From positions 8,060,001-8,124,000 of the forward strand of contig JAGUCH010000004.1 of NCBI GenBank assembly GCA_019096065.1: a stretch of DNA of 64,000 bases, written 5' to 3'. The translations under genes and the position numbers were made by a program. Under the pieces are notes generated by a model. It was given only the letters and a program-made list of their open reading frames with translations, was not told the DNA's origin and searched no databases. This DNA is from Paracyclopina nana (Eukaryota; Arthropoda; Copepoda; Cyclopoida; Cyclopettidae). Shown here piece by piece: positions 9,901 through 59,600 of the stretch (the stretch's first letter is position 1; each line of letters opens with the position of its first letter).

Positions 9901-12900
9901 ATTTTGACGAAATTACCGATTTCCATCTCTTTTTTCGTTCCTTGTTGCTTTTTATACATTTTTTCCTTACAATTTCTGCTTCTTTTCGTTGCTATATTGA
10001 AGCCTGTGAAAAAGCCTTGATTTCACATAAATGGAAAAAATTTCATCCTTTGATGTGAAATTAGCTGCCATTTTGAATTTTTTCTGGGAACTTGCTTCAA
10101 TTCAGTTTGGCAAAGAAAAAAAAAGGAGGAAATGCTCAAAAACAAAGTCAGGTCTTTACTACTAATTTTTCACAACAGCGAAAGATGTCAAGGATGAAGG
10201 CCCGGTCCTTCGCAGGTTTTCTCATCATTAGCTGGTGACGGGTATTTAAATACCCTATGTAGTATAAAGGTACTTAAATAGCAGCTACTTAAATACTTTT
10301 TTACTACATAGGGTATTTAAATACCCGTCACCAGCTAATGATGAGAAAACCTGCTTAGGACCGGGCCGAAAAGGGGGGAAAAATGCACACACTAAAAATT
10401 TTATGGCTTCATTTCTGCCTTGGTTTCTGCCAAAAACACTCTCACAAGGCAAAACACAAACTTGACATTCATCCCAATTTTCACATTTTTGACTTATTTC
10501 TTATTCTTTTTTCTGCTTTCTTTTCACTTTTTCCTTTTCTTTTTTTTTTTTGGTTCATTCTTTTTTCACTTTTTTAATGCTCTAATAACAAACATTATTT
10601 CCTCGCATTTAATGATGACTTTCTTAATGATATTAATAATGTCTGTGGTGTAATTACAGCCGAACTTTTCAATTACCTCATTTCTTTTTTAATGATCTGA
10701 ATCCAACTACTTTTTTATGACTCTGTCAGTCCTAATAGAGAGCGTCGTAAATTAGCAGGCAAAATATTACTACTATTTCTCGTCAAATCGCATGGGTTGA
10801 ATTTCAAATAGCGAAAAATGCCATAAATTGTTTGTCAAAACTGCTCAGCCGATGACAAAGGTCAGGCAAACTTTTTTGCATGTTCATTATTGATACAGCA
10901 TGAAATTGTTGTAGCTGAAATTGGCCATTTTTTGCACAAAATGGCCATTTCATGACAGTGACAATTATCATTCCCACGTGTGCATTGTCCATCAAAATTA
11001 TGTGACCTCTTGAGATTTGAGCTACGAAAATGAAGCCAATTTAAATAGCTCAAAGGGAGAAAATTATTTATAATAGCTTCTTCGCATAAAACTCAGTAAG
11101 CAAAGCAAGGCACTTTGGAAGCTCATAACTCAGTACTGAGCCGATTGGAACCAAATTTGGAAGCATTCATTTGAGCATATCGAAGAATGTCCATGCAAAA
11201 TTTCGTCCGGATCAGAGGTTCCGAAGATTTTTTGCCTCACTTTCAATTTGAGTCATTTTGCCTTGAATTGAGTCATTTTGCCTTAATTTGAGTCATTTTA
11301 CCTCAATTTGAGTCATTGTGCCTCAATTTGAGTCATTGTGCCTCAATTTGAGTCATTGTGCCTCAATATGAGTCATTGTGCCTCAATTTAAGTCATTTTA
11401 CCTCAATTTGACTCATTTTGCCTCCATTTGAATCATTTTACCTCAATTTGAGTCATTTTGCCTCAATTTGAGTCATTTTGCCTCAATTTGAGTCATTTTA
11501 ACTCAATTTGAGTCATTTTAACTCAATTCGAGTCTTTGAGTCATTTTGCCTCAAGTTGGGTCATTTTGCCTCAATTGAGTCATTTTGTCTCAAATTGAAT
11601 CATTTTGTCTCAATTTGAATCATTTTGCCTCAAGGTTGAGCCATTTTGCCTCACTTTGAATCATTTTACCTCAATTTGAGTCATTTTACCTCAATTTGAG
11701 TCATTTTACCTCAATAGAAACTGTTGTCTCAATAAATTAATTTTGACAAATATTCTATTAGTTGTTTTGAAACCTACTTTTTAGTCTAATCTGCCTCACG
11801 TTGTTTTTGACATTTTCAATGACAGTGACAGGACTGTTGTTGATAATTTTGTTTCAATGGCGCCTTTTTGCCATTCACAAGAAGAGATCATGATGACTTG
11901 CATAAATGACTGACTAACTTGACTAAGCAGACTCAATTGCGGCCCTGCAAAAAGCCCATCATCATCATCGTAATTGGAATGATCGAATTCTAGCCCGAGC
12001 ACCGGCTCAAGTTCTAATTGAAAAGATGAAAGTGCAATAATTGGCCCTATTTTTTGCGACTCGACACCCCGCACACTGGTTAAAACGAAATTTGCAATTA
12101 AGCTGGCTTCAAACGTTCGACTTTTTTCCGCGTAGCAAAAATCTCGCCAAATTGCAACAGGGCATCAGCTGGCATCAAAACAAACGCACGTGCGCACGCG
12201 CGCGCGCGTTTCAAGCGTTTTCGCGGAAAATCTTAACCTTGCAGATGAATTATTTCATGTGCAATTATTGCATCCCAAAACAAAATATTTGTTGCAAAAA
12301 GGAAGCATGAAATGGAGAAAATTCCATGAATTGCACATTCCGTCCCATTTTTGGCCATTATTACGTTTAATGCCAAATCCACATGAAATTGGATAAAGTT
12401 CGTCAAAGCGTCTGGGTTGTTGGTTGTGGAGGAGATATTTACATTTGGCGGAGAATATTCAAATCGGAAAATGATCACTTGTTGATTGCCAGCTACAACC
12501 TGAGGAGAAGATGGATTGTTGCCATTTGAGCGCCTCAAATGGCTGCTGCTGCTGCTGCACTTTTGGTGCATGCATCATCAAAAACTGCCAGGATATCAAG
12601 CACTATCACCAAACTCTGCGAGGGTGCATTTGAGGCACCAACAATATTGAATAGATGAGCATGACCTTCGCTGCTAAAATTCAACCCATCAAAAGCTGCA
12701 GTGTTGCCCGAATTTGTCACTATCACTCAAAACGGCTCAGAAGGACTCTTTTTCTCAAAATGGCACGATTGAGTAAAAAAATTGGCACAAAATGGCTCTT
12801 ATCAGTCAAGATGAATCATTTGGGTCACAATTGCCCTTTTTAGCAAATGTGACTCTTTTGGCTCAAAAATGACTCATTTGGCTCAAAAATGAATCAATCG

Positions 12901-15900
12901 GCTCAAATAAGGCTCATTTGGCTCACAATTGCTCATTTAGCTCAAAAATGACTCATTTGGCTCACAATTGACTCATTTGGCTCACAATTGCTCATTTAGC
13001 TCAAAAACGACTCATTTGGCTCACAATTGACTCATTCAGCCCAAAAAGACTCATATGGCTCAAAAATGACTCATATGGCTCAAAAATGACTCATTTGGCT
13101 CAAAATGCCTCATTTGGCTCAAAATGCCTCATTTGGCTCAAAATGGCTCATTTGGCTCAAAATGCCTCATTTGGCTCAAAATGCCTCATTTGGCTCAAAA
13201 TGCCTCATTTGGCTCAAAATGCCTCATTTGGCTCAAAATGCCTCATTTGGCTCAAAATGCCTCATTTGGCTCATAATTGATCATGTGGCTCAATTTGTCA
13301 TGCCTGTTTCCTCAAAATATCTCACCTTGGCGCAAAATGCCTCTCGTAGCTCAGACTGAGTCACGTTGCCTCAAATTATCAAAAGTGTTTTCATCAAGGC
13401 TGATCCTGAATGAATTGGCAAACACCTTTTTTTAATTTTTAGCATAATAGACCATTGTTGTCATTTTTCCCCCTTGGTCATTGAACAATGGAAGAAGATG
13501 AGAGGCCTATACATGAGCGCCGCAAAAAAGTCGTGAATTAGTTGTTAGTATAATTCATAGGCACTAATTATGGGCCTAATACATGTATGTGCACATGCTC
13601 AACGAGTGACCTTTAAAAATAGGCAATTTTCTGCCTTGAGTATCTTTTTTTGAGGCAAATTAGAGGAAAACTGTTTTTTAAATAATATCTTTTAAAAAAG
13701 CACATGTTATGTGGCAAAATTAAAATTTATTTAGTGTATTTGAACAAGTAATTTTAAAGCACTATTTTCCCCTGTCCGAATCTGTGTGAAGAGTTATGTG
13801 CACCATTTTTTGAGCAAATTGGAAGCCAAAGGAGCAATAATTTACCTGTTGTTCCTTTTTCCGTCAAATTAAAGGGAGGCATGCGCGCCGTCGCTGTCTG
13901 TTTTTCAATTTCGCGGAAAAATAACGATTAACCTTTTTTGACACTAATAACGCCTCTGATAATTCCCCTGAAACTAAAAAACAACTACAAAGTGGTTTTT
14001 TTTGTGGAGTGCATGTCGCTTTTTTGGATGAGTTTTTTTCAAGTGAAATTCCGAGTGTGATCACCATTGCTAATTGATTGGGCCTTGAATTGGCAGAGAC
14101 CAATAAGCTTTGCGGTGATTTTATTATTATCAGCAATAAAATGCCCAATTTCGAAAATATTTCGGCTATTTCGCTTTTTTAATTTTTCATTTTGAACACG
14201 AATCATAATTTATCATATTTGTACCTACTGTGAGGCGTTTTGAGACAATTGAGATTATTTTTAGACAAATAAGTTATTTTGAGGCAAATGAGCATTTTTT
14301 GTTAAAATAATAATTTTGAGGCACATGAACCATTTTGAGCCAAATGAGCCACAATATCGCTTTTTTTTCAAAGAAATAATACATTTTGAGGCACATGAGC
14401 CATTTTGAGGCATATGAGCCATTTTGAGGCAAATGGGCAAAAACCATCGATTTTGAGCCGAAGTAGCCATTTTTTGTCAAAATGGTTTGAGTCAAATGAC
14501 TGAAATGAGTCCACTATGACTCAATGAATTTTTGCTTTGCACAGAATATTATCAATATCAATTTTAGGCAAAATTAACAAATTCGTTTTCGATTAATGTA
14601 AAATAAAAAAGCTTTTTTTTACATTTTGTTGTAAAGCAACATTAAGGCTAAGACAGGCGATCATTTTATTTTACAATAATCTTCAAATTGTAATTTATGA
14701 CTCAATCAGCAAAAGTCAAGGAGCTTTTTTTGCCCATTTTAATTTTTAGTTCTTCAAGTTGTCGCTATACTTAGCTGGCGCTTCTGTTCGCGTTAATAAC
14801 GACGCGAGCGCCATCTCGCGGCCAGATTGTGCATTTTCTCTCAACCTTGCCATTTTTGCAATACATTAGCGCAACACAAGTAGAACATTAGTTTTTTAAA
14901 TGATGACTCGGCATAATTATGAATTGCATATGCTGATTTGACGGAATTCCCAGACTAATCGAATTAACATATAATAATTGACCTTTCACAAGTTTCTTGG
15001 CATCTTTTCAATCACAAGATGTAAATAGCAAAACAAGATGGTTATTTCTGCTGACTCATCTCCTATGAATGCGTGTGTGGGACTTTAGTCTAATACTTTT
15101 TTGCTGAATTTGTTGATACTGAAAAACTTCATCATTTTCGGGCAAACAGAAATGTAGGTCTTAAACTAGAAATAGGTCTTGAAAATCGAAAGTCTTGAAC
15201 ATCAATCAAGGTCTACTAGATTAATGAAGGTCCATAAAAAGAAATCTTAACTTATAAAGTTATATCTAAATATAAATCTAAGAAAGTTGGTATAAAGGAT
15301 AAAATTAGGTCTAAATGATAAAAATAGGTCTTTATTGTAAAAGTAGGTCTTATTCATAAAAGTAGTTCTTAAATATAAAAGTTGGTCTAAATGATGAAAG
15401 TAGGCCAAAAAGGAGATATTTTAACGTAGGTCTGAAAAGTAAACCAGGTCCAAAAAACATGCAGTTCTTTTAGTTGAAATAGGTCTAAATATTACATTTT
15501 TCAAGAGTAGATTGAATGGAACTTCGGTTTTGAAATTCGAGCAAGTTATGTAAAAACCGAATTGAGTCGGCATTTTCCGCACTCGTGAAGAATTTTGAAC
15601 GGCGAATGGCGGCGTCATCGACCGTTCGGAATTTAAGTCGCGCGCAGCAATAAAAGTGCTGAAAAAGCTTCAGTTTTCATTCAGTTTGCAGCGAGTGACA
15701 AAGTGCCAAGAAATCCAAGTGAAATTCCACAAAAATCTTAACAAGGTAAAGAAGACAATTTTCACTGTTTAAACTATAAAAACTATAAAATGAAGATTTG
15801 CTATATAATATGTTATTTTTCAATAGTGCATCTTTTAGCTGAAACTGTTATTTTTTAGTAGTATTTTGGATCAATTGGGTCCTTTTTTGCTGGGTTAATC

Positions 15901-21900: not shown

Positions 21901-24900
21901 AATGGGTAATTTTTCTTGTGAAACTGCCCCTCAAAAGCCCTTTTTAACACACTAATTGAATTTCTTTAGCCCTCACGTGCCCTTTGAACAAGTCCATATT
22001 TCCTCAATTGTGCCCAAACTGACCCTTTGAACCCACAAAATCGTATTTCAGCCCAGAATTGATGCAATGAGCCCAAATATTCCTAGATAAAAAACCCACA
22101 AATTTCCATTTAAGCCTTCATCTGCCCATTTAAGCCTTCATCTGCCCATTTAAGCCCACATCTGCCCATTTAAACCTTGAACTACCTATTGTATGCAATA
22201 AAAACATGTTTTAGCCCACTTATGCCCTTTTCAGCCCTCAAATTATCAATTGCCCATTTCAGCCCTTCTTACACAATATTTGCCCATTTTAGCCCCTTGA
22301 AGATTATTTCTTCCAAATTCACTTATAATGGCCTATTACATATCCATTTTAAATTATGCCCTTCGAATTTTGCCCAAACGAGCTGAATTTCACAATTTTT
22401 GCTGATGAATGGACCGAGCAGAGCAATTTGAGGCTGATGTTGAATGGTCAATGTGTGTGTATATTGTTATGCTAATTATATTTTAGCATGGAAATTCGCC
22501 ATCTTTTTTCACCCCCACAGGGCGGCGGAGGAATTTTCAAGGCCATAATTATTGCTGGTCTTTTTTCTTCTTTCCCTCTTTTTTGTGAAATGAATCATCA
22601 TCACAATAATAATAATAACACCCGCAATTAAAACTGGTAGAAAAAAGCCAATTTAAGATCTGAATTTAAGCCTGGAAAAAAGCAAATTGGCTCATGATAA
22701 TTATAATCCACTTGACTATGGCAAAAAGTGTCGATCTGGTAGCCCCTTTTGGGCTGGAGAATGGCTACCAGACGCCAAGTTAATTTATGGTCAAAAAGTG
22801 CCAATTTGCTGGGGCCAATAAACAAAAGTGCATCGGATGATAAAGTTGTAAAAAATGCACAAAAGAGGAGAGATTTTCCAAGGTTTTCCATTGCTCAAAG
22901 GGTCAAAAAACAAACGAGGAGGATCCGGGTTCCAATACCTCTTTCGGAGCCAAAAAATGCCCAGAAACGCCACGAAGTGCCCATAAATACCGAGCCATGC
23001 CTCGAACTGCCAAAAAATGGCCAAAAGTGCCCTAAAAAGCCAAATTACCTAGAAAAATGCCAAGAACGACCATAAGTGTCAAATATGCAAAAATTGACTT
23101 GTTTTTTTAAAAATAATTATAGAAATATTATTTTAATATCAAAAGTAGCCAAAAGTGCTTCAAAACGCCAATTTTGACTTGGATTTTCATAATAAAAAGT
23201 ATAAAATTGCTGAGAAAGGCCAAATTATCATTTTAGTGTCAATAATCCAATCTAAATAATGTAAAGGGAAAAATTAAGATTGAAAAGCCAGGGTAAAAAA
23301 AGCTTTGGAAACTACTTCCGGTCACGTGGTTTCAGGCCACGTGGCGCGCGTCAGCTGATTGTTATTATGTAATGCATCCATTTTGATCCTATGAGACATA
23401 AAAAGAGCACTTTGATAAGATGCCTCCTTTTTATGACCTATAATATGCAAATGCATGTCTTTTTGGCACTTTTACACGCTTTTCGGCCATAAAACAAGCT
23501 ATCATCAACTGGTATTAACTTTGTGCACTCATCACCTCCATAAAAATGCTTTTAGCATTTGAATTTTCCGCCCCTTGCAATAATGCTTTGCAGATAAGTG
23601 CATTGCTATTTTTGTATCATCTCATTATTTTCATCAAAGCTCAGCTTTTTATATTATTAATGCTGATTTTTGCTTGCTTTCAAAGCTGAGCTTTTGTTTA
23701 CATTCAAAGCTGAACTTTTTATTTGCATACTCTGCTGAACTTATGTTAACATTCAAAGCTGAGCTTTTGTTTACATTCAAAGCTGAGCTTTTTGTTTACA
23801 TTCAAAACTGAGCTTTTTATTCACATTCAAAACTGAGCTTTTTGTTTACATCCTTTGCTGAACTTTTGTTAAAATTCAAAGCTGAGCTTTTTGTTTTCAT
23901 TCAAAACTGAGCTTTTGTTTACATTCAAAGCTGATTTTTCGTTCAAAGCTGAGCTTTTTGTTTTCATTCAAAACTGAGCTTTTGTTTACATTCAAAGCTG
24001 ATTTTTCGTTCAAAGCTGAGGTTTTGTTGCATTAAAAGCCGAGTTTTTGTTTACATTCAAAGCTGAGGTTTTGTTTTCGTCCACAGCTGAGCTTTGTTCA
24101 CATTTAAATCTGAGCTTTATACGTCTATTATCAAAGCTTCATTTGTTTTTTCTTCAGATTTGTTTACAGCCATGTTTGCGCTGAGTCAGGGCTTGCTATG
24201 GCCACTTTCTCAGCAGAATTCAGTTTTTATGGAGATAAGGACTTCGACCTATATTAGGCATGCACTTTTAAGCATGGCAAAATTGGTGTCACGACAAATG
24301 ATGATCAGAATCGTGAAAAAAACGCCAGAAATTTGCCACAAGCTACTCACACATCCACTCACTTTTTATCAATGGTGCACATCAAAAATGCATTTTGTGG
24401 CCTAAAACCCTCAAAAACTAACCACTTGCCATTTGACGGAAATTGTTTTGCTTGCATTTATCTAATGTCAAAAACAGCTGACGTGACCCGTATGCCGAGC
24501 TAAAGTGACAAAAGTTTACAGAGTGACGTAAAAAGTTTTTTGGCCGATTTTCCACTGTGGCAAAATAGTCCTCGTCCCTTTAAAATAGTCGAATGCGTGA
24601 AAATAATCCACTGTGGCATGAATTTCCATTGTGGCAAAATATGGGAAATATTCCACTGTGGCATGACATTCAATTGCGACATGAGAGTCCACATGTACAA
24701 AAAATCCACTGTGGCTTGCCTACTCATTTGAGCTCACCATTTGCACAGTGGACTATTCACTTTTTTGGCGCGCATATTTTTTTCAATTTTGTCCCGCAAA
24801 ATCAAATTGAGCGCAGACTTTTTATGGGTGAGTGTGGCTGAAAAGTCCACTGTGCATTTGGTTGGTTTTTTTGGCGGGGAAAAAAGGCAATTGCGAGTTG

Positions 24901-30900: not shown

Positions 30901-33900
30901 TGAGCTGCGATCAAAGAGAGTGAGTGTGCTCAGTGAGTTACGCTCTTAAAACTGTCCTGAGCTTTACTTTCTGAGCACAACTCTCTGAGCACAACTCTCT
31001 GAGCACAACTCTCTGAGCACAACTCTCTGAGCACAACTCTCTGAGCACAACTCTCTGAGCACAACTCTCTGAGCACAACTCTCTGAGCACAACTCTCTGA
31101 GCACAACTCTCTGAGCACAACTCTCTGAGCACAACTCTCTGAGCACAACTCTCTGAGCACAACTCTCTGAGCACAACTCTCTGAGCACAACTCTCTGAGC
31201 AGAACCTATATGAGCAGAACTCTCTGATTACAACTATCTGAGCACAATAATCTGAGCACAACTCTCTGAGCACAATTTCAGAGCACAACTCTCTGAGCAC
31301 GATTTCTGGGCACAACTCTCTGAGCACAACTCTTAAAGCACAACTCTTAAAGCACAACTCTCTGAGCACACCTCTCTGAGCACACCTCTCTGAGCACAAT
31401 TTCTGAGCACTCTCTGAGCTCTCTTAGCTTAATCATCTATCTTCACCTTTCGGAGAGCAACTCTCTGAGCTTAGATCTTTTGGGTGCACTTCTGTGAGTA
31501 CTAATTTCATAGCTCAACTTTCCTTCTGCAACTCTTGAGCACATTTTTTTAGCACTAATCTCTGAGCACAAATCTCAAAGTCTTCTTTTCCTTACAGGTT
31601 CCTGAGCGACTGTATCAGCTTGTAGACCGATCAACGGACGGCTTAGTGACAGCTGACCAAGTGATGGAGTTTATAGCTGGCCTGCAAGCCATAAGGTAAA
31701 CAAGATCTAATTGCACTTTATGAGGTTCTTAGCCACCCATAAATAGCTTCTGATTACTATTTATTCAAAAGATGACTACATGTGATAAGCACCCTGCCAG
31801 ATCCGGCCCACAACAAATGCCCCACAATTTGGGGGCTTTTCATGGCATGTTTGACCAGTGTGGCATTTTTTATCATGGCTCCACATCTGTGGCCTGAAAA
31901 ATTGCGGCACCGTTCATCATCACACATCCCTTTTTATGCTAATGGACGTGAATTAAGATCGATCTTAATTACCCTAGCTTATCTCCCAAAATCTTGGAAA
32001 TTCCAGAGTTTCCATTTTACATCTGGCAATAAAAAGTCAATTCTGGTAGCTCTTTCATGATGAGGCTCTGAAAAATCAATCGGTCATATTTACTACAAAA
32101 TGGATTTCTGATATTTTAGATATCTGGAACATAAATGCTCAGCTATGATAATTCAATTTTATTTGTCATGGAATCTTAATTGGAGCATCAATTTTTTGTG
32201 TGGAACTTCAAATGATTAGTTGAACCACACTAAAGATCAATGGAACCAAAATTTTTGACTTGCGGAACCACATTTTATTAATGGAGCACCAATTTTTATT
32301 TTTGGAACACCTAATTATATTTGTGGAACACCTATTTATAATTGTGGAACACAATTTTTCGTATGTGGAACCACAATTTTCATTAAGGAACCTCAATTTT
32401 TATTTCTGAAAACACAATTTTTTTGTGGAGCCACAATTTTTATTGGTGTAACCACAAAAATTTATTTGTGTAACCACAATTTTATTTGTGTAACCACAAT
32501 TTTATTTGTGTAACCACAATTTGTATAGAGACCTAAATCATAACAATAACATTGACATAGAGTCTTCCACGCGATCTTTATGGGCAAAATTGGTGTGCAG
32601 CCGGAAAAGAAGTAATCATTACCAGAAAGTTCCATTCAGAACTTGTTTGTCTATGGCTTGGCTTTTTCTGTCAGAAATTGTATTTTTGCATAAGATACCA
32701 AAAAATAACACTTTCCTGAGTCAGAATGAGGTACTACTGCAAGCGGATCGTCTGGGGTACAATCTTTTTTTAATTTCGATATTTTCGCTAAATCTTTAAT
32801 TTTTAGCTAGGAGTTAACATCAATTAATATGACCATTCATACCTCTTCTTGTATTTTTTGTTAACTTTGATTTTTCTTAAGAAAAACCAGAATTATGTCT
32901 GCTTTTTTAAGGGTTGTGCACCTGAAAAAAATTGCTCCATTTTGTCAACAAAAAAGTTGTCGCATCCCTTTTCAAACCAGTATTTCCCATATTTTCACAC
33001 TAGATAGCGACAAAATGTTATGATTTGGGTCTCTATAAGTGAAACCATAATTTTTATTTGTGAAACCACAATTTTCATTTGTGTATCCTCAATAGTTGTT
33101 TAAGGAACCACAATTTTTATGGGTGAAACAAGATTTTTTATTTGTCGAACATCAATTTTTATTTGTGGAACCTCATCAAAATTTGTTAAATGAGCCATAA
33201 TTATTGCTTGTGAAACCTCAATTTCTATGTGTGTGACCATAATTTTATTGATGTGAAGCCTTAATTTTCATAGATAATTTTCATAACCATAACTATTCTT
33301 TTGATCCTTTTTCAGTCCTCGCACAGAAATGACAGAAGAAAACCTAAAATGGCTGGAAAACGTGTTCCGCCGCACAGTGGGCGAAAATGGCGAAATCCGG
33401 CTGCAAGACTTTAAAAACATTGTGCATTCCAAAAATGTAAGAAGATCATTATATCAAATAGTTGCCTTAATTCAAGCCTTTTTTTCCTCAGCCATTTTTT
33501 GTTGAACGGGTATTTCACATTTTCGACAAAGATGACAATGGGTCCATTTCATTGCAAGAATTCATCGATGCCATGCACCAATTTGCTGGTCAAAGTCCAG
33601 ATGACAAAATCAAATTTCTGTTCAAAGTTTACGACATTGACGGTAAGCTGGAATTTGTTTCATATTTGCACACTGCAAAGTGATTAACCCGCGCATAATT
33701 CAGTTTTCTATCCACTGCTTGGTTCCACCAGTACAGGGTTGTAAAGTAGTCTCTAACCTGTAAAATGATTTCCCCCTTTTAGGTTATTTTTCGCTTTCTT
33801 CTTTTTGAAAAGCAGCTTTATGTCACATTGGGTAATTTAAGTCACTTTACATCCCTCTGAAAACTTTATAGGACATGAAAATATTTGTTACTTTTCAGCT

Positions 33901-49488: not shown

Positions 49489-50562
49489 AAATAATTTTTT
49501 TCTTTGAACAATCATAACTAGTCCTATTTGAGTATGTAATAGTTGTACTTTAAGATTTACTAAGTAGGAAGGTTACTTAAATTTTTAACGTATTTACAGA
49601 AGGGAAATTATGATGAGATATATGTCAAGAAAATTTTCATAATTAAATGCCATTTTAAGGCTCATTTTAACCAACTTATTGAATGACTGACTTTGTTTTA
49701 GGATTTCAAGTTATTACAAAACCTTGATTTGTAAAGTAATGATCATCAGGCTTTTTTCAAGGGTTAGACTTGCGTCAACGAGATCTTGGTTGTAAAATGG
49801 ACAATACATAGGAAACATCCAAATACTTACTTAGAGTAATGATGAGGCAACAATCATTTCAATCAATAAATTAAAACCATAAAGTGAGGCAATAATCACA
49901 ATAACTTGAAAACCATATTATCAGATGACATACTTAATTGTAGTGTTTTGAATGGCTCCTGTTCACTTTCAAGTAATGTACTTATCAGTTGAATTGTTAA
50001 GAAGCCTTAAAAATTACATTTACTATACAACTGGCGACCGTAAGCGGCCTTAACAGCTAAAAATGAGCCATAATGTTTATATTTTTTAAGGATTGGGACC
50101 TAGTTGAATATAATGCTTTTTCTTGTATGAATAAGTTTTGATTTTATAGCAAAATGTCGTACTTTCACTGTTAGGAAGATATATTGAAAAATGATGTCAG
50201 TTAAGTTTCTAATTAAGCTATTAGTTTCAATTGTGTGAACGCTGCTCAGAAAGTCTTTGCAAGGCTGCCAAATCACAATAATGCCATCTATGAAGGTTTT
50301 TATAAACTAAGAACTGTAAACTTTCTTAAAAGTCCATTTTACTATGATTTGTACTTGGCCTGTTTTTCTGATGGTAAATCTGTAAGATGAATGTTAAAAA
50401 TAGGCCTTTAGGGAAAATATACAGTAAAACATGTTATCAATCATCGCATTTACTTTGGAGCCTTTTAGCAGCAGCTTGAAAAGAGAAAGCTGAGAAAGCC
50501 CCAAAACTAAAGTCATGTGCAAGCCCAAGCAAACTTTTTCTAAACTTATGAAGCCTTAATTT
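49489..50562. other. Intergenic after ADAT3
   Basis: AT-rich. AATAAA at 49864-49869 can end ADAT3. A 19-base word, gagaaagctgagaaagccc (50483-50501), recurs exactly at 58290-58308 on the other side of the foldback element. No gene seen. Confidence 0.5.
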
Positions 50563-50692
50563 GGGGATGACTCGCGAGTGCGAGCACGGAGCGAAAAAAG
50601 TACCACATATACATACGGACTAAAACGGCCGTAACTTTGCCGTTACATAACATATCCGCGATTCAAGCACATATTTGGAATCGGGTCAGCGC
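50563..50692. repeat. Left terminal inverted repeat (block A)
   Basis: CG-rich terminal block with gagtgcgagcacggagcgaa, aaaaagtaccacatatacat, acggactaaaacggc and gttacataac. It pairs with 56975-57107. The match is very close for the outer ~65 bases and weaker inward. Confidence 0.88.
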
Positions 50693-51190
50693 GCCCTTTT
50701 ATTTGAGCCCAAAAAAGTCGTCAAAATGCGGCGTATAAGAAAGTTGCAATTTTCTCCGTCGTCCTTGGGCCTAGAGCAAAACCAAAGACAGTTTTGGAAA
50801 TCCCAGCCCGAGCTCTACAAATATTATTTTATGAACATTTTCAAAAAAATCCATTCTAGTGCCTCAAAATCGCCATTTTCGTGTTTATTAGAGAACAGCT
50901 CCATTAATTGAGGTCAAATTAGTAAATTATTCATAGCTCAATGTAGGAACATCAATAAAATGTAATTTTTGCACCATTGCAACCACCTCAACATGCCATT
51001 TAATTTGAGCCCAAAAAAGTCGTCAAAATGCAGTGTACAAGAAAGTTGCTTGTATCTCAGTTGTCCTTTGGCTTTAAGCAAAACCAAAGACAGTTTTGGA
51101 AATCCCAGCCCGAGCTCTACAAATGTTATTTTATGAACTTTTTCAAAAAAGTCCATTCTAGTGCCTCAAAATCACCATTTTCGTGTTGAT
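50693..51190. repeat. Left arm block B, two direct copies
   Basis: Copies at about 50700-50890 and 50998-51185. Both contain agcccaaaaaagtcgtcaaa, ccaaagacagttttggaaat and agtgcctcaaaatc. Open frames across them on either strand (for example 50675-50911 +) are repeat-derived. Confidence 0.85.
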
Positions 51191-51722
51191 TAGGGGCATA
51201 CAAGTCTCAGCAGTCTATTAAGAAAACATGCTAGCTCCAGCGCTGAGCCCTAAGTAGCCTGAGGTGAAAAATCTTCATAAAAAAGTCATATCCTGAAACT
51301 GCATATAAAACTGAGCCACTTTGTGCTTTAGAGCCAACTCAGCATTCTGACTCTAGACAGGAGAAAAAACCAGCGCAAACTTGGACTGAGCTCAAATTGT
51401 AATGCCAATATCTCAGCGCTGAGTTGTCAGATTTGAAAACAATTTACTGTTTTGGAATAAGGATGAGATTAGCTAACTTTCATTACTTCATAGTAATTTT
51501 GCTAGCTCAGCATTTTGTTTCCCCTGTCTCAGCAGTCTATTAAGTAAACATGCTAGCTCCGGTGCTGAGCCCTGAGCAGCCTGAGGTGAAAAATCTTGTC
51601 ATATCCTGAAACTGCATATAAAACTGAGCCACTTTGCAATTTTGCTTGCTCAGTTATTTAATTCACAGTCCATTAAGTAAACATGCTAGCTCCAGTGCTG
51701 AGCCCTGAGCAGCCTGAGGTGA
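51191..51722. repeat. Left arm block C (313-bp-type unit, one full plus part)
   Basis: Contains agctccagcgctgagccct, agcctgaggtgaaaaatct and atctcagcgctgagttgtc. It is the reverse complement of the unit amplified at 53995-56440. Here there is about one full unit and partial copies at 51526 and 51676. Confidence 0.85.
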
Positions 51723-51897
51723 AAATTCTGGTCACTTTTGCCCATTGAGACTTTTGCCCTTGAGACTTTTGCCCATGGACACTTTTGCTCTAAGATACAT
51801 TTGCCCTTAGGAAGTTTGTCCTTGAGGACTTTTGACCCTCAGACTTTTCCCTTCAGACTTTTGCCCTTGAGGAATTTTGCCCTTGGAGAATTTTGCG
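51723..51897. repeat. Left arm block D (tttgcccttgagg repeats)
   Basis: Short units of about 15-17 bp, cttttgcccttgagga and variants, about ten imperfect copies. Confidence 0.8.
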
Positions 51898-52145
51898 GGT
51901 GAGCACAATAACGTCGACTTTAGAGTTGTTTTTACGTCGAATGAATTAGTAGTATTAGCGTCGACATCGGGCATTCACTTATGACGACACTTTTGTCATA
52001 GTTGTTTTAATATCGACACCCGGGTTTACAATTAAGTCGACAGATTTGCTCATGTTCTTTTAATGTCGACACCAGGCGTTTTAGTGTCGACAAAAGATAT
52101 TTCAATGTAGACACAAGATGTTTTTATGTCGACACACACCAGCTA
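51898..52145. repeat. Left arm block E (GTCGAC repeats)
   Basis: Spaced copies of gtcgac or one-base variants every 20-40 bases, typically tttta(a/g)tgtcgacac. Mirror partner at 52795-53025. Confidence 0.8.
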
Positions 52146-52394
52146 CCGCGTATTTGCCTCTCGAGAAGTAGTTCGAAGTAAGGACCAAATCAAATAAATG
52201 TTCTCATTTTTTTAAAGGATTACTTGATGAGGGTTAAATTGAGTGGTTTTAAATCTAGAATAAACATAAGACACTTAGGGCCTAACCTAAAATTATAACA
52301 CAAAACGACAGCTTAAAAAAGTTAAAAATTAAATGGTTTTATCATGAATTGCCTAATAAGGCCGATTGTGGCTATACAAAAATGGAACAATAGT
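52146..52394. other. Inner segment of the foldback element
   Basis: About 250 bp of AT-rich sequence without coding potential, leading into the nested MITE. Confidence 0.5.
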
Positions 52395-52562
52395 GGCTTA
52401 GTCTTTCGCAAGTTTTGCATAGTCACGCTATTTAAATAGCTCATAGCATAAAATGTATTTAAATAGCCTCGGGATGTATTAAAATAGCTGCTATTTAAAT
52501 ACGTTTTATGTTATGAGCTATTTAAATAGCGTGACTATGCAAAACTTGCAAAAGACTAAGCC
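52395..52562. mobile_element. Palindromic MITE, copy 2, nested in the foldback element
   Basis: 168-bp near-perfect foldback. The left end is ggcttagtctttcgcaagtt; the right end is its near complement, aacttgcaaaagactaagcc. There are several tatttaaata palindromes, and the centre is aaatagctgctatttaaat. AGT lies directly on both sides as a 3-bp duplication. Ends and centre match the MITE at 10199-10367 (shared pattern GGC, GTC, TTCGCA, GTTTT). Confidence 0.85.
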
Positions 52563-52794
52563 AGTGTAAAAATGCGTAAATTGGCCAATTTTTAGTAATA
52601 TTTGGCCGTAATATTGCCAATAATTAACTGACCAGGTGAACAGGGCCTTATTATCAAGATGTTAGAGTCATGTACTACACATAAGAAAAAAACCAAAAAA
52701 CATGATTTTAGTTTATTACATTTTAAAATACCTAAGCTAGCCCTTGATCAAGCCAAGGTGAACACTAAAAATGGCAGCAAATTCTGTCTACGCA
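52563..52794. other. Inner segment of the foldback element, right of the MITE
   Basis: AT-rich, non-coding. The 66-codon frame 52659-52859 runs into GTCGAC repeats and is not a gene. Confidence 0.5.
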
Positions 52795-53025
52795 AAAGCA
52801 TTATTTGTCGACATAAAAACATCAAGCGTCGACATAAAAACATGAGGTGTCGACATTAAAGCATGATGTGTCTACGCTAATGTTATATTGATGTGTCGAC
52901 ACAAAAGCAACTCTTGCAAAAGTGTCGACGTAAAGATATCATGGAGCCAAAAAAAATTCGACATTAAAATACCTCTCGCAAAAGTGTCGACACAACTGCA
53001 ACTCTCGCACAAGTGTCGTCGTTAT
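52795..53025. repeat. Right arm block E (GTCGAC repeats)
   Basis: tgtcgacataaaaacatgag-type units, the inverted counterpart of 51898-52145. Confidence 0.8.
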
Positions 53026-53265
53026 TGATGGCGCCCAATTTTGCCCTTGGTGTCTTTTGCCCTTGGGGTCTTTCTCCCTTCGGGACATTTACCCTTAGGG
53101 ACATTTGCCCTTGGTGACATTTGCCCTTGGGGACATTTGCCCTTGGGGACTTTTGTCCCTTAGGACTTATGCCCTTGAAGGCTTTTGGCTTTGGGGACTT
53201 GTGTCCTTGTGGACATTTTCATTTGGGGACAATTGCCCTTGGGGACCTTTGCTCTTTTATGACTT
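53026..53265. repeat. Block D repeats, same orientation as left arm
   Basis: cttttgcccttggggacatt-type units of about 17 bp. They run in the same direction as the left-arm D block, not inverted. Confidence 0.8.
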
Positions 53266-53399
53266 TTTTGAAGTTCTGATAGTTTGCTTTTAACCTTTGA
53301 TTAGTTAAATGAAAGATAAATCTGAATTTTGTCTGGTGTACGTGTACAAGGCCCTTTGATCAACAGGACATAGTAAAAGCAACCATAAGAAGAGTTCCT

Positions 53400-53860
53400 A
53401 TGGGCATCAGTCCCCTTGGGCAGTAGTCCCCACAGCCATAAGTCCCCAAAGCCAAAAGTCCTAAAGGGCAAATCTCTCAAAGTTTGCGGGGGCAAAAGTT
53501 TCCTAGGGCAGAAGTCTAAAGGGCTAAAGTCCCCAAGGGGAAATGTCCCCAAGGGCAAAAGTCCCCAAGGGCAAAAGTCTGAAGGGAAAAAGTCCCCAAG
53601 GGCAAAAGTCTGAAGGGAAAAAGTCCCTAGGGGCAAAAGTCTCCAAGGGCAAAAGTCCCCAAAGGCAAAAGTCCCTAAGGGCAAAAGTCCCCATGGGCAA
53701 GAGTCTCTAGGGTAAAAGTCCCCATGGGCAAAGGTCTCTAGAGCAAATATCCCGCATGCATAAGTTCTCATGGGCTAAAGTCTCATGGCAAATGACTCCA
53801 TGGGCAAACGATCAAGGGCAAAAAGACCAAGGGCTAACAGCAAAGGGCAAAAGTCCTGAG
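53400..53860. repeat. Block D repeats, inverted
   Basis: Reverse-complement units aagtccccaagggcaa, about 25 imperfect copies. With 53026-53265 they make a second, local inverted repeat separated by about 135 bp. The minus-strand frame 53301-53771 (LLPLGTFAFGDFCPW pattern) is a repeat artefact. Confidence 0.85.
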
Positions 53861-53994
53861 ATCATTATTGTACGACTATTAATTGTCTACAAATTGTCTA
53901 TACATGCCAACATGATCTGCTTAGATCTGCTGAGTCAGGCAAAGTGGCAATAGACTGCTGTGAGAAGGAAAGCAAATATCTTAATAATTATTTT

Positions 53995-56440
53995 TTACCT
54001 CAGACTGCTCAAAGCTCAGCACTGGGCTTTCTTGTTTACTTAATTGGCTGCTGAAACATAGGAAACAAATTGCTGAGCCAGCAAAATTGCTTTAAAGCAA
54101 TGAAAATTAGCTGAGTTGGATATGAAGTACATAGTGGCTCAGTTTAATATGCAGTTTCAGGATATGACCAGATTTTTTACCTCAGGCTGCTCAGGGCTCA
54201 GCACTGCACTGGAGGTAGCATGTTTACTTAAAAGACGCTGAGACAGGGGAAACTAATCAATGAGCTAGCAAAATGGCTATGAAACAATGAAAGTTAGCTA
54301 ATCTTACGCCATTTCCAAAACAGTAAATTGTTTTCAAATCTGACAACTCAGCGCTGAGATATTGGCGTTACAATTTGAGCTCAGTCCAAGTTTGCACTGG
54401 TTTTTCTCCTGCCTAGAGTCAGAATGCTGAGTTGGCTCTGAAGCACAAAGTGGCTCAGTTTTATGTGTGGTTTCAGGATATGACCAGATTTTTTACCTCA
54501 GGCTGCTCAGGGCTTAGCACTGGAGGTAGCATGTTTACTTAATAGACTGCTGAGACAGGGGAAACTTATCACTGAGCTATCAAAATGGCTATTAAGTAAT
54601 GAAAGTTAGCTAATCTCATCCTTATTCCAAAACAGTAAAATGTTTTCAAATCGGTCAACTCAGCGCTGAGATATTGGCGTTACAATTTGAGCTCAGTCCA
54701 AGTTTGTACTGGTTTTTTCTCCTGTCTAGAGTCAGAATGCTGAGTTGGCTATCAAGCACAAAGTGGCTCAGTTTTATGTGTAGTTTAAGGATATGATCGG
54801 ATTTTTCACCTCAGGCTGCTCAGGGCTCAGCGTCGGAGCTAGAATGTTTACTTTATAGACTGCTGAGACAGGGGAAACTTATCACTGAGCTAGCAAAATT
54901 GCTATGAAGCAATGAAAGTTAGCTAATCTTACGCCATTTCCAAAACAGTAAATTGTTTTCAAATCTGACAACTCAGCGCTGAGATATTGGCGTTACAATT
55001 TGAGCTCAGTCCAAGTTTGCACTGGTTTTTCTCCTGCCTAGAGTCAGAATGCTGAGTTGGCTCTGAAGCACAAAGTAGCTCAGTTTTTCATGTAGTTTCA
55101 GGATAAGACAAGAATTTTCACCTCAGGCTGCTCAGGGCTCAGCAATGGAGCTAGCATGATTACTTAATAGACTGCTGAGACAGGGGAAACTTATCACTGA
55201 GCTAGCAAAATGGCTATGAAGTAATAAAAGTTAGCTAATCTTATGCCATTTCCAAAACAGTAAATTGTTTTCAAATCGGACAATTCAGCGCTGAGATATT
55301 GGTGTTACAATTTGAGCCTGGTCAGAGTTTGCGCTGGTTTTTTCACATGCCTAGTGCCAGAATACTGAGTTGGCTCTGAAGCACAAAGTGGCTCAGTTTT
55401 TCATGTAGTTTCAGGGTATGACCTGATTTTTTACCTCAGGCTGCTCAGGGCTCAGCACCGGAGCTGGCAGGTTTACTTAATAGGCTGCTGAGACAGGGTA
55501 AGCTAATCACTGAGCTAGCAAAATGACTATGAAGTAATGAAAGTTAGCTAGTCTCATGCCATTTCCAAAACAGTAAATTGTTTTCAAATCGGTCAACTCA
55601 GCGCTGAGATATTGGCGTTACAATTTGAGCCTGGTCAGAGTTTGCCATGGTTTTTTCACCTGCCTAGTGCCAGAATACTGAGTTGGCTCTAAAGCACAAA
55701 GTGGCTCAGTTTTATGTGTAGTTTCAGGATATGACCTGATTTTTCACCCCAGGCTGCTCAGAGCTCAGCACCGGAGCTGGCATGTTTACTTAATAGGCTG
55801 CTGAGACAGGGTAAGCTAATCACTGAGCTAGCAAAATGACTATGAAGTAATGAAAGTTAGCTAGTCTCATGCCATTTCCAAAACAGTAAATTGTTTTCAA
55901 ATCGGTCAACTCAGCGCTGAGATATTGGCATTACAATTTGAGCCTGGTCAGAGTTTGCGATGGTTTTTTCACCTGCCTAGTGCCAGAATACTGAGTTGGC
56001 TCTGAAGCACAAAGTGGCTCAGTTTTATGTGTAGTTTCAGGATATGACCTGATTTTTTACCTCAGGCTGCTCAGAGCTCAGCACCGCAGCTGGCATGTTT
56101 ACTTAATAGGCTGCTGAGACAGGGTAAGCTAATCACTGAGCTAGCAAAATGGCTATGAAGTAATGAAAGTTAGCTAGTCTCATGCCATTTCCAAAACAGT
56201 AAACTGTTTTCAAATCAGACAACTCAGCGCTGAGAAATCTCAGTTACAATTTGAGTCTGGTCAGAGTTTGCGATGGTTTTTTCACCTGCCTAGTGCCAGA
56301 ATACTGAGTTGGCTCTGAAGCACAAAGTGGCTCAGTTTTTCATGTAGTTTCAGGATATGACCTGATTTTTTACCTCAGGCTGCTCAGGGCTCAGCACCGG
56401 AACTGGCATGTTTACTTTATAGACTGCTGAGACAGGGGAA
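53995..56440. repeat. Right arm block C, 313-bp tandem satellite
   Basis: Units start with acctcaggctgctcagggct at about 54182, 54496, 54809, 55121, 55433, 55747, 56059 and 56372. That is about seven full units plus a truncated one at about 54000. Period is about 313 bp. Each unit carries ttacaatttgagc, actcagcgctgaga, a palindromic-looking cagcgctg, and tttccaaaacagtaaa. Units are highly alike, indicating recent amplification or homogenisation. Confidence 0.92.
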
Positions 56441-56974
56441 ACCAAAATAAACACGAAAATGGCAATTTTGAGGCATAATACTGGAATTTTTTGAAAAAGT
56501 TGATAAAATAACATTTGTAGAGCTCGGGCTGGGATTTCCAAAACTGTCTCCATGTGATGTATCTCACCAGAGTTGGAGCACTGAGGTTTTGCTTAAAACC
56601 AAAGGACAACTGAGATAAAGGCAACTTTCTTGTACGCTGCATTTTGACGACTTTTTTGGGCTCAAATTAAATGGCATGTTGAGGCAGTTGCAATGGTGCC
56701 AATATTACATTTTATTAAGGTTCCTACAATGAGCTATGGCTAATTCAACAATTGGACCTCAATTACTGGGGCTGCTCCCTAATAAACACGAAAATGGCGA
56801 TTTTGAGGCACTAGAATGGACTTTTTTGAAAAAGTTCATAAAATATCATTTGTAGAGCTCGGGCTGGGATTTCCAAAACTGTCTTTGGTTTTGCTCTAGG
56901 CCCAAGGACGACGGAGAAAATTGCAACTTTCTTATGCGCCGCATTTTGACGACTTTTTTGGGCTCAAATTAAAG
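56441..56974. repeat. Right arm block B, two inverted copies
   Basis: Copies at about 56448-56672 and 56780-56968, containing atttgtagagctcgggctgg and tttgacgacttttttgggct. Mirror partners of 50693-51190. Minus-strand frames here are shadows. Confidence 0.85.
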
Positions 56975-57107
56975 GGCGCGCTGCCCCGATCCCAAATATG
57001 CGCTTACATCGCGGAAAAGTTACGTAACGGCAAAGTTACCGCCATTTTAGTCCGTATGTATATGTGGTACTTTTTTCGCTCCGTGCTCGCACTCACGAGT
57101 CATCCCC
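56975..57107. repeat. Right terminal inverted repeat (block A)
   Basis: Ends ttcgctccgtgctcgcactc, acgagtcatcccc. Complement of 50563-50692. Confidence 0.88.
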
Positions 57108-59600
57108 TTTTGCAGGATATTGTTTAGAATAATCGAATTTGTTTTGGAATTAATAGTAACATATATATTTTTACTCTCTTTTGCTTTCACCTAGTTGAAG
57201 AGACCTGCTTTCTTTTTATTGAAGAAAGGCCTTCAAAGATGGCGCTGATTCCAAAGTGCTTTAGAATTGCAATCAAGATTAACAGGCTAGTGGCATAAAA
57301 TATATGAATGACTTTAAAAAACCTGGTAATTGACGTTTTGTGTATGCATTTTCTAATCTGTTTTGCCTCCGGCTTGCACTCTTTAAAAAATTATTGTTAT
57401 TTACCGTACCCGCGCTAATTTAGGTCCATTCGAAATTAAGGCTCAGTTCACCTGAATTGGAGCTGAATCTGTATCATAATTTTTTTTTACAAAAAAAAGT
57501 GTAAACTGATGGATTTTTTGCCTTGCCTGAAATTATGACTTAACTTTACTTCTAGCATATAATTTCAGACTAAAATGTCACCTAAGCTGCGACTTCAAAT
57601 TGGCAAATATCGTAATTTTTGCTCCAAATTAGGCCGCGAATTTTTTTGTAATTTTTTAGGCAACTACTTTTTCATTACTAAAGCCTATTTGCATACCATC
57701 AACACCAGTTTTTTCCTGACTAGTGACTACTGACTACTTGCATCTGCTGCTGTTAAACTAGAAGCTTCTCAATTTGTCGAGTTAAGTATTGAACTTATCA
57801 TGATTTCGAGAAGCCTAATAAAGAAGAGTATTAAAAAGTCTCTATACACATTGGCGATCCTAGGCACTGCGTGAAGCGTGAAAACCTTTGTGTTTTGAGA
57901 CACATTGAACTCTTGCTTTAAAATACTCATAGAATCAGCTCTTTCTTGCTTATTAAAACCAATTTTTTAGCTAGCTTTTTGCAGGACTTGAGTTAGGGTG
58001 AACCTATTTGCTGCCAATCATCATTAAATTAAAGGCCTCCAAAAGCGAATAAATGATAACTTTGCCTTTTTTTCAACACAAGTTCACATCAGCGCCATCT
58101 ATGTTGCCATTTGGGCATTAAAAGTAGTGAGCTTTTGTAACAAGCTCAAAATGTTTTTTGCGAATAAATGTCTTCATCTGCGTTTTCTTATGAGGCTTTT
58201 AAGAAATAAGACACTAAAATATATGACAAAATTCCTTATTAACCTTATATATAATAGCAGCTTGGTGAGTTGAAGCATCTGGTTTCAACGAGAAAGCTGA
58301 GAAAGCCCATTTATTCAAGGGTTTCTATTTTAATTGTTACAAGCTATAAAAAGCACTGCTTTGCTGATTATTTCCCAATTTTGTTAAGAAAAACTTTATT
58401 TTGAGAAAATCATTTTCTTCAAAGCAAGTTTGATTATTCAATCTTTCGAATTTTGGGCTGACATTGTCCCTCTGGTGACCTTTTGCTTAAACTAAAAAGG
58501 GAAAGCTGTGTATGCCCTACTCCTTTTAAGAAAAGGCCTTTCACTTATTTGTGTCAATTTGTTTGTGCCAATTTTTTGTGAATATGCTTTTTATGATTGA
58601 ATCAGTAACAAGCTACATTTAAAGAATATTGATTTGATTAAAGTTTTGTGGCTTAAAAATTGTTAATTTTTGCATCAATTGCACCATAAAAATGTGTGAA
58701 CTTGACAAGGGGATTTCTAATCACATAATTTCACATAGTGTACATAAAGTACAATTGTCTGTAGTTTTACTTTGAAAAATATAAAGCCATGCTGTCAGTT
58801 CGTTAGCAATCTGCAAGACAGGTCCAGAATGACTAAATATACTCATTTTGCCAGACTTAATTGATCACTAATTGTAGCATTATGAACCTTTATAATAGCC
58901 GAAAGTTCTCATTGCTAAATTTACTTACATGTTGTTCACCAGATCTGAAAGCTCCTTAAAATTAAATAAGCTCAGGAAAGAAAAATATTTTAGAATTTTC
59001 CCAAAATGGGAAAGTGGCCCTACAAAATCTTATTTGTTGGGAGAGCTAAATATCTGGAAATAATGTTAAAGTTAATTCTGACTTTTTTGTTTACTAGAAT
59101 GTGAAATTAGCATAAGCAAAAAGAGTTTGAGCAAGTCCAGAAGCTTTGCTGAATTCCTGCACTTTTTCACCTGCCTCAATTCAGACTGGAGGTGTTCTCA
59201 CATCAAAGGCAAGAAAAAAGGATTGCTTTCAGCAGGAAGTCTTGCCAAATGTAAGCACGCTTGCAATAGGTTCCAATTTGTGGCTATGGTAAAGATATTT
59301 TCTGCATGAAGCTGCTGAGTGACTGAGGCAGATTTCAAAAAGTGTGTCAACTTCTGCGCTGACTTGCTTTTAATCAGTAACTCATTAATTGGCTGTCGTA
59401 ATGCTATGCGCTACATTTTTGCATTAAAGATGTTATCAAGCTACACTTTATAATTGGCATTTCAGCTGATGTTTCACATCTTCCACAGCCAAATATATTA
59501 GAAGTACTTTTAAAATATCTTAATTCGACATTGCAACCTTTGGGCTCATAAAAATTGCTTTATCAAAGATTTGGTTTGGATTAAACATATCTGATGCACC
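57108..59600. other. Non-coding region right of the foldback element
   Basis: No convincing exon. agatggcgctgat (57238-57250) and its exact complement atcagcgccatct (58089-58101) form an isolated 13-bp inverted pair about 0.85 kb apart, which could bound a small element. The 60-codon frame at 59127 lacks any domain. Confidence 0.45.

Follow-up and report, generated by a model that had tools for sequence, protein, structure and literature searches.

The 64,000-nucleotide stretch of Paracyclopina nana DNA analyzed here (the window) corresponds to C4:8060001-8124000 of a 92-Mb genome assembled in 10 contigs. It carries a repetitive element of 6,545 bp (50563-57107, forward strand), and the open reading frames to the left of this element resemble NADPH oxidase 5, ADAT3 and a sperm-tail protein. 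The element starts with GGGGATGACTCGCGAG and has an inverted copy of GGGGATGACTCGCGAG at its far end, with exactly the borders proposed by a first-pass annotation of this DNA. Its two arms are 92.7% identical over the outer 523 bp and 85.5% identical over the adjoining ∼550 bp, and both present the blocks A, B, C and D in mirror order. Block A is a terminal inverted repeat of 130 bp (50563-50692, forward; 56978-57107, reverse) and block B has a unit of ∼300 bp, with ∼1.7 units per arm (50693-51193, forward; 56446-56977, reverse). Block C, a 313-bp tandem repeat, renders the arms very unequal, with ∼1.7 units on the left (51204-51734, reverse) and 7.4 on the right (54111-56442, forward). Block D is a 16-bp minisatellite present at 51727-51896 and 53037-53256 in the left arm (both reverse), where the array is broken by a segment designated E, and at 53425-53856 in the right arm (forward). 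The central foldback spacer (core3; 53257-53424, forward) is present in 16 of the 17 copies described below, being missing from L024.

Genome-wide occurrence of the family was assessed with the first 158 bp of the element as query; the best 40 of 66 candidates were scored, so that the counts that follow are lower bounds. The 40 matches have 91–100% identity (100% in eight of them), and 34 form 17 convergent pairs, the other six being unpaired. The pairs comprise the window copy and 16 further copies (L009-L024), in all of which the two arms carry A, B and C as mirror images, according to the common plan A-B-C(n)-D-spacer-D-C(n)-B-A. These 17 copies lie on six contigs, in differing flanks and with common borders, measure from 3.8 to 9.1 kb and have an inverted arm of more than 1 kb built of tandem blocks. 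Their ends are mainly of two types, GGGGATGACTCG and GGGGATCACCCG. Allowing up to 3 mismatches, a 20-mer of the end is found 49 times and its reversed pattern 2 times, and AAAGGGGATSAYYCG itself occurs 36 times, against none for its reversed form; a 30-bp end pattern had no exact match in viral contigs. Joint occurrence of A and B as ends elsewhere had been named by the first-pass annotation as the test of its proposal, and since all 17 convergent pairs carry both blocks at both ends, the structure is a large non-autonomous element and not a set of adjacent satellites or a misassembly. Parts of the family also occur in other settings. Units of C with no nearby foldback end, as judged by the end searches, lie at C5:3501769-3504049, C9:919558-920729, C2:10327861-10328170 and C5:7249357-7250226. 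The end of L065 agrees with the foldback terminus over its first ∼20 bp only; other repeats come next and, further in, block A minus its first 10 bases. Judging from this locus, foldback ends may be swapped as modules.

Host junctions were compared in a set of 17 copies that excludes L023, which lacks its right terminus (its left flank reads AAA), and includes L058, which has a divergent right end. Host bases AAA precede the left end in 14 of the 17 copies, TTT follow the right end in 16, and both conditions hold in 14; relative to the AAA frequency of the window, the excess at the left has a binomial P of ∼1e-16. In the window copy the left junction is exceptional, with TTT at 50560-50562, and the right one has TTT at 57108-57110 (both forward), the state of 16 of the 17 copies. 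The flanking duplications that had been expected at copies of the element did not materialize: target-site duplications of 4–10 bp are absent from all 17 copies, with five end offsets tried. Matches of 2–3 bp between the flanks occur in at most 3 of the 17, and at offset 0 a 3-bp match is seen in a single copy, that of the window (TTT). Neither the TWA duplication of PIF/Harbinger type nor the AT duplication of ISL2EU type, at A-AT-T, was found in these copies, 14 of which have AAA at the left together with TTT at the right.

Searches with joined flanks, in which the best 40 of 104 and the best 40 of 523 candidates were scored, recovered empty sites for three copies (L017, L024 and L022), with no bases duplicated or lost. 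For L017, at least 16 places match the joined flanks, with 96% identity along 142 bases and no difference in length. Those of L024 match repeats, with a 2-base alignment gap off the junction and the junction itself intact. At the empty sites of both copies, AAATTT is intact (two examples each). The flanks of L022 together make up an exon of serine palmitoyltransferase 1 (SPT1), one half on each side, of which an uninterrupted paralogue at C4:2140096, with 99% identity over 112 residues, aligns across the junction free of gaps. The exon pair thus consists of C7:77605-83114 (L022), split by the foldback element, and C4:2140096-2140431 (L063), unsplit. Also, joining the flanks of L016 and of L019 yields open C2H2 zinc-finger frames. 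By eye, L068 and L017, and likewise L067 and L024, have similar flanks, in the same host repeats and at about the same site, which suggests that one target has been used repeatedly by different foldback copies.

Insertion into AAATTT without target-site duplication has been described for Spy transposons (PMC4482050; PMC11304231), a clade of the PHIS superfamily whose sister is ISL2EU (PMC11304231). Intact Spy elements, as published, measure 1.2–5.9 kb and have one open reading frame and inverted repeats of 5–691 bp (PMC11304231), and ISL2EU elements duplicate the AT of A-AT-T (PMC4482050). The foldback family has in common with Spy the AAA/TTT insertion, the lack of duplication and the terminal inverted repeats, and differs from it in lacking a transposase frame, in its size of 3.1–9.1 kb and in having inverted repeats beyond the Spy range. 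The element is most probably (with a probability of about 0.72) a recently active, non-autonomous, foldback-type, Spy-like cut-and-paste DNA transposon. No autonomous partner was found, and it is therefore the insertion signature that connects the family to Spy; membership of Spy is not proven without a transposase, and what can be said is that the build is that of a foldback and the insertion is Spy-like. Searches of the open-licence PMC literature brought up no report of a foldback Spy element.

Several observations weigh against a Spy-like assignment. Three copies depart from the AAA/TTT rule, namely the window copy (TTT/TTT), L012 (TAA/TTT) and L058 (ATT/TTA), and the SPT1 paralogous site reads CAGATTT instead of AAATTT, against CAAATTT at the joined L022 site. 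The likeness to Spy is one of insertion signature rather than of matched end letters. To the same side belongs the failure to recover an autonomous partner in searches with PF13359, PF13613, an ISL2EU-type protein and the end patterns, MULE (Mutator-like element) and P transposases not having been searched for. In particular, no Spy transposase was found among 25 DDE_Tnp_4 matches, which are ISL2EU-like, Harbinger-like or unassigned, and the searches with HTH_Tnp_4 and the ISL2EU-type protein gave no candidate bearing foldback ends.

Coding capacity within the family is minimal. As initially noted, the window element holds no transposase, its sole frame of at least 110 codons being a minisatellite frame of 157 codons. 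No frame exceeds 164 codons in 17 of the 18 two-ended copies (window, L009-L024 and L058). The exception, L024 (9.1 kb), was considered as an autonomous copy and rejected, its long frames being those of a nested retrotransposon; L024:3129-8359 holds two long frames, one of them with reverse transcriptase, RNase H and integrase domains. The autonomous relative with a transposase between such ends, which the first-pass annotation had suggested looking for, was not encountered among the other candidates either. Loci L029-L035 are ISL2EU-like, L030 with THAP, HTH and DDE domains, L033 with HTH and DDE, and the others as judged by alignment and by eye; frames named by eye as YqaJ-like adjoin L029-L034. 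These loci were discarded as partners, with no foldback ends within the ∼3.5 kb examined. Among unrelated matches to the 16-bp end, the closest differ from it by 4 mismatches (L029) or by 3 (L053 and L057), and none has AAA correctly placed before it. The family resembles ISL2EU in its AT-rich target, and ISL2EU-like frames are present in the same genome; it differs in that ISL2EU duplicates AT and that the resident ISL2EU-like copies lack foldback ends in the sequence examined.

Within the sequence examined around the DDE_Tnp_4 matches, foldback ends are limited to a fragment in L054 and L055. The matches concerned (C1:1905k and C6:3725k) proved to be parts of a Harbinger-like element that has different ends and contains the foldback fragment, and were rejected. 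The ends of this element (L054-L056) are unlike foldback ends, and the fragment, consisting of A and part of B (L054:1437-1774 and L055:1425-1762), has been copied along with it. Other candidates were set aside on similar grounds: the weak match at C4:7382526 (L057) and L074 are ISL2EU-like frames without foldback ends; L071 and L072, with weak HTH_Tnp_4 and zinc-finger matches, have no foldback ends in the 3–4 kb examined; and a divergent end at C2:6690016 has no partner end and no frame above 107 codons in 7 kb. By eye, L071 and L072 show introns and a DDE-like stretch, and may represent a remote transposase relative. No transposase frame was recognized by eye in the one-ended copies L025 and L026. 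The partner transposase may have been lost, or be unassembled or unrecognized.

Alternatively, the family could be moved by a different, undescribed enzyme, for which duplication-free insertion at AAATTT arose independently. The profile and protein searches that returned no Spy transposase, and a likeness to Spy that is one of insertion rather than of matched end letters, speak for this possibility; nonetheless, Spy already accounts for both the unusual target and the missing duplication, and elements of its sister clade (ISL2EU-like) are present in the genome, so that an independent origin seems rather unlikely. A related and similarly doubtful proposition is that of a foldback class beyond the described superfamilies, with an AAA/TTT insertion convergent with that of Spy, blocks that would constitute a renewable transposase-binding array, and foldback-like passengers.

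The gross plan of the element, in turn, with an outer domain, inner tandem repeats, a variable middle and no coding capacity, recalls the foldbacks allied to Mutator/FB (FB, Tetris, Tm1) or to P/Galileo; on this reading, a MULE or P-type transposase would move the family. FB elements have a foldback plan of the same general kind. According to the published descriptions, Tetris, a foldback of Drosophila virilis, lacks an open reading frame and has modular arms, each with an outer and an inner domain and a variable number of tandem repeats of ∼220 bp, around a middle that also varies; Galileo (P superfamily, foldback-like) has long arms, in some of which tandem repeats occur, and many copies without transposase; and Tm1 (Mutator/Foldback, root-knot nematodes) has composite variable inverted repeats. 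The first-pass annotation was right in regarding the element as non-autonomous, but the class is not a wholly undescribed one: its plan has precedents in FB, Tetris, Tm1 and Galileo, and its insertion habit has one in Spy. However, Tetris makes duplications of 8–10 bp, Tm1 of 9 bp and Galileo of 7–8 bp, and transposases are of P type in Galileo and Phantom-like in some Tm1 members. With duplications of 4–10 bp in none of the 17 copies and empty sites that show none either, an assignment to these systems is very unlikely. Helitrons insert between A and T without duplication and have TC...CTRR ends that are not inverted repeats. The missing duplication and the A/T junction would suit a Helitron-like element, yet the ends here are long inverted copies (GGGG...CCCC), unlike those of Helitrons, and the base preference spans three bases on each side, which leaves this option highly improbable. 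Finally, unrelated satellites lying side by side, or an error of assembly, an idea favored by the richness of the window in tandem repeats elsewhere, can practically be dismissed in view of 17 copies with the same borders in different flanks on six contigs, and of the empty sites.

The mirror order initially described included a further block with GTCGAC-type repeats, and this part of the description did not hold: the block corresponds to E, an independent element of 1,140 bp with GTCGAC-repeat arms (51897-53036, forward), inserted in the left D array and outside the foldback proper. It is flanked by an 8-bp target-site duplication, AATTTTGC (51889-51896 and 53037-53044, both forward). Once E and one of the 8-bp copies are taken out, the D array falls back into its 16-bp phase, with an 81% match across the junction at offset 8 against at most 44% at 16 others. 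In a search with 51880-52392, in which the best 40 of 165 candidates were scored, 26 matches located outside foldback copies extend into the first 50 bases of the query; 22 of them start at query base 17 or 18 (51896/51897) and the remaining four at 12, 13, 20 and 41. One E copy, at C4:413231, has different flanks. Whole or partial E is present in 8 of the 17 foldback copies and absent from L014 and L017-L024; in all six copies with both borders found (window, L009-L013) it occupies an identical site. E probably entered the foldback once and then spread as a passenger. A nested insertion of this kind can thus create what looks like an additional arm block.

Near the center of E lies a palindrome of 170 bp (52393-52562) with a single-hairpin fold. 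Two palindromes of 169 bp, at window positions 10199-10367 and at L056:620-788, are 98% identical to each other and form a hairpin family like miniature inverted-repeat transposable elements (MITEs), with a distant likeness to the palindrome inside E. Elsewhere in the window, positions 362-33268 hold many separate minisatellite arrays with units mostly of 14–28 bp (for example 11243-11715, 12850-13293, 23634-24118 and 30966-31410).

Comparison of the arms over ∼340 columns revealed that 33 of 34 resemble an arm of another copy (95.2–100%) more closely than their own partner (93.5–97.9%), the exception being one arm of L024. The 123 full C units fall into 49 types at 97% identity. Unit 'a' occurs in one arm of eight copies, and the opposite array starts with 'b' in seven of these and ends with 'h' in all eight. 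Since the number and type of C units differ inside one arm, C arrays change within single arms; L012, for instance, has six copies of one unit and L011 a repeated d-e pair. The order of unit types is kept despite such internal changes. These patterns would be consistent with a recent spread of the family from founders whose arms already differed, and with growth of the tandem blocks by slippage or unequal exchange. For the Spy-like foldback favored here, a DDE transposase of Spy type (PHIS superfamily) would act in trans on the ends. For Galileo, tandem blocks have been proposed as extra transposase-binding sites (PMC3688188), and by analogy the blocks of the present family may supply additional sites of this kind.

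Near-identical copies with differing numbers of C repeats constitute a natural series for the study of arm growth and shrinkage, and the insertions in reading frames (the SPT1 exon duplicate and two C2H2 zinc-finger frames) point to a recent mutagenic effect. Foldback architecture has previously come from the Mutator and P superfamilies; its combination here with the insertion signature of Spy suggests that arms of tandem repeats have independent origins in transposase systems that are unrelated to one another.

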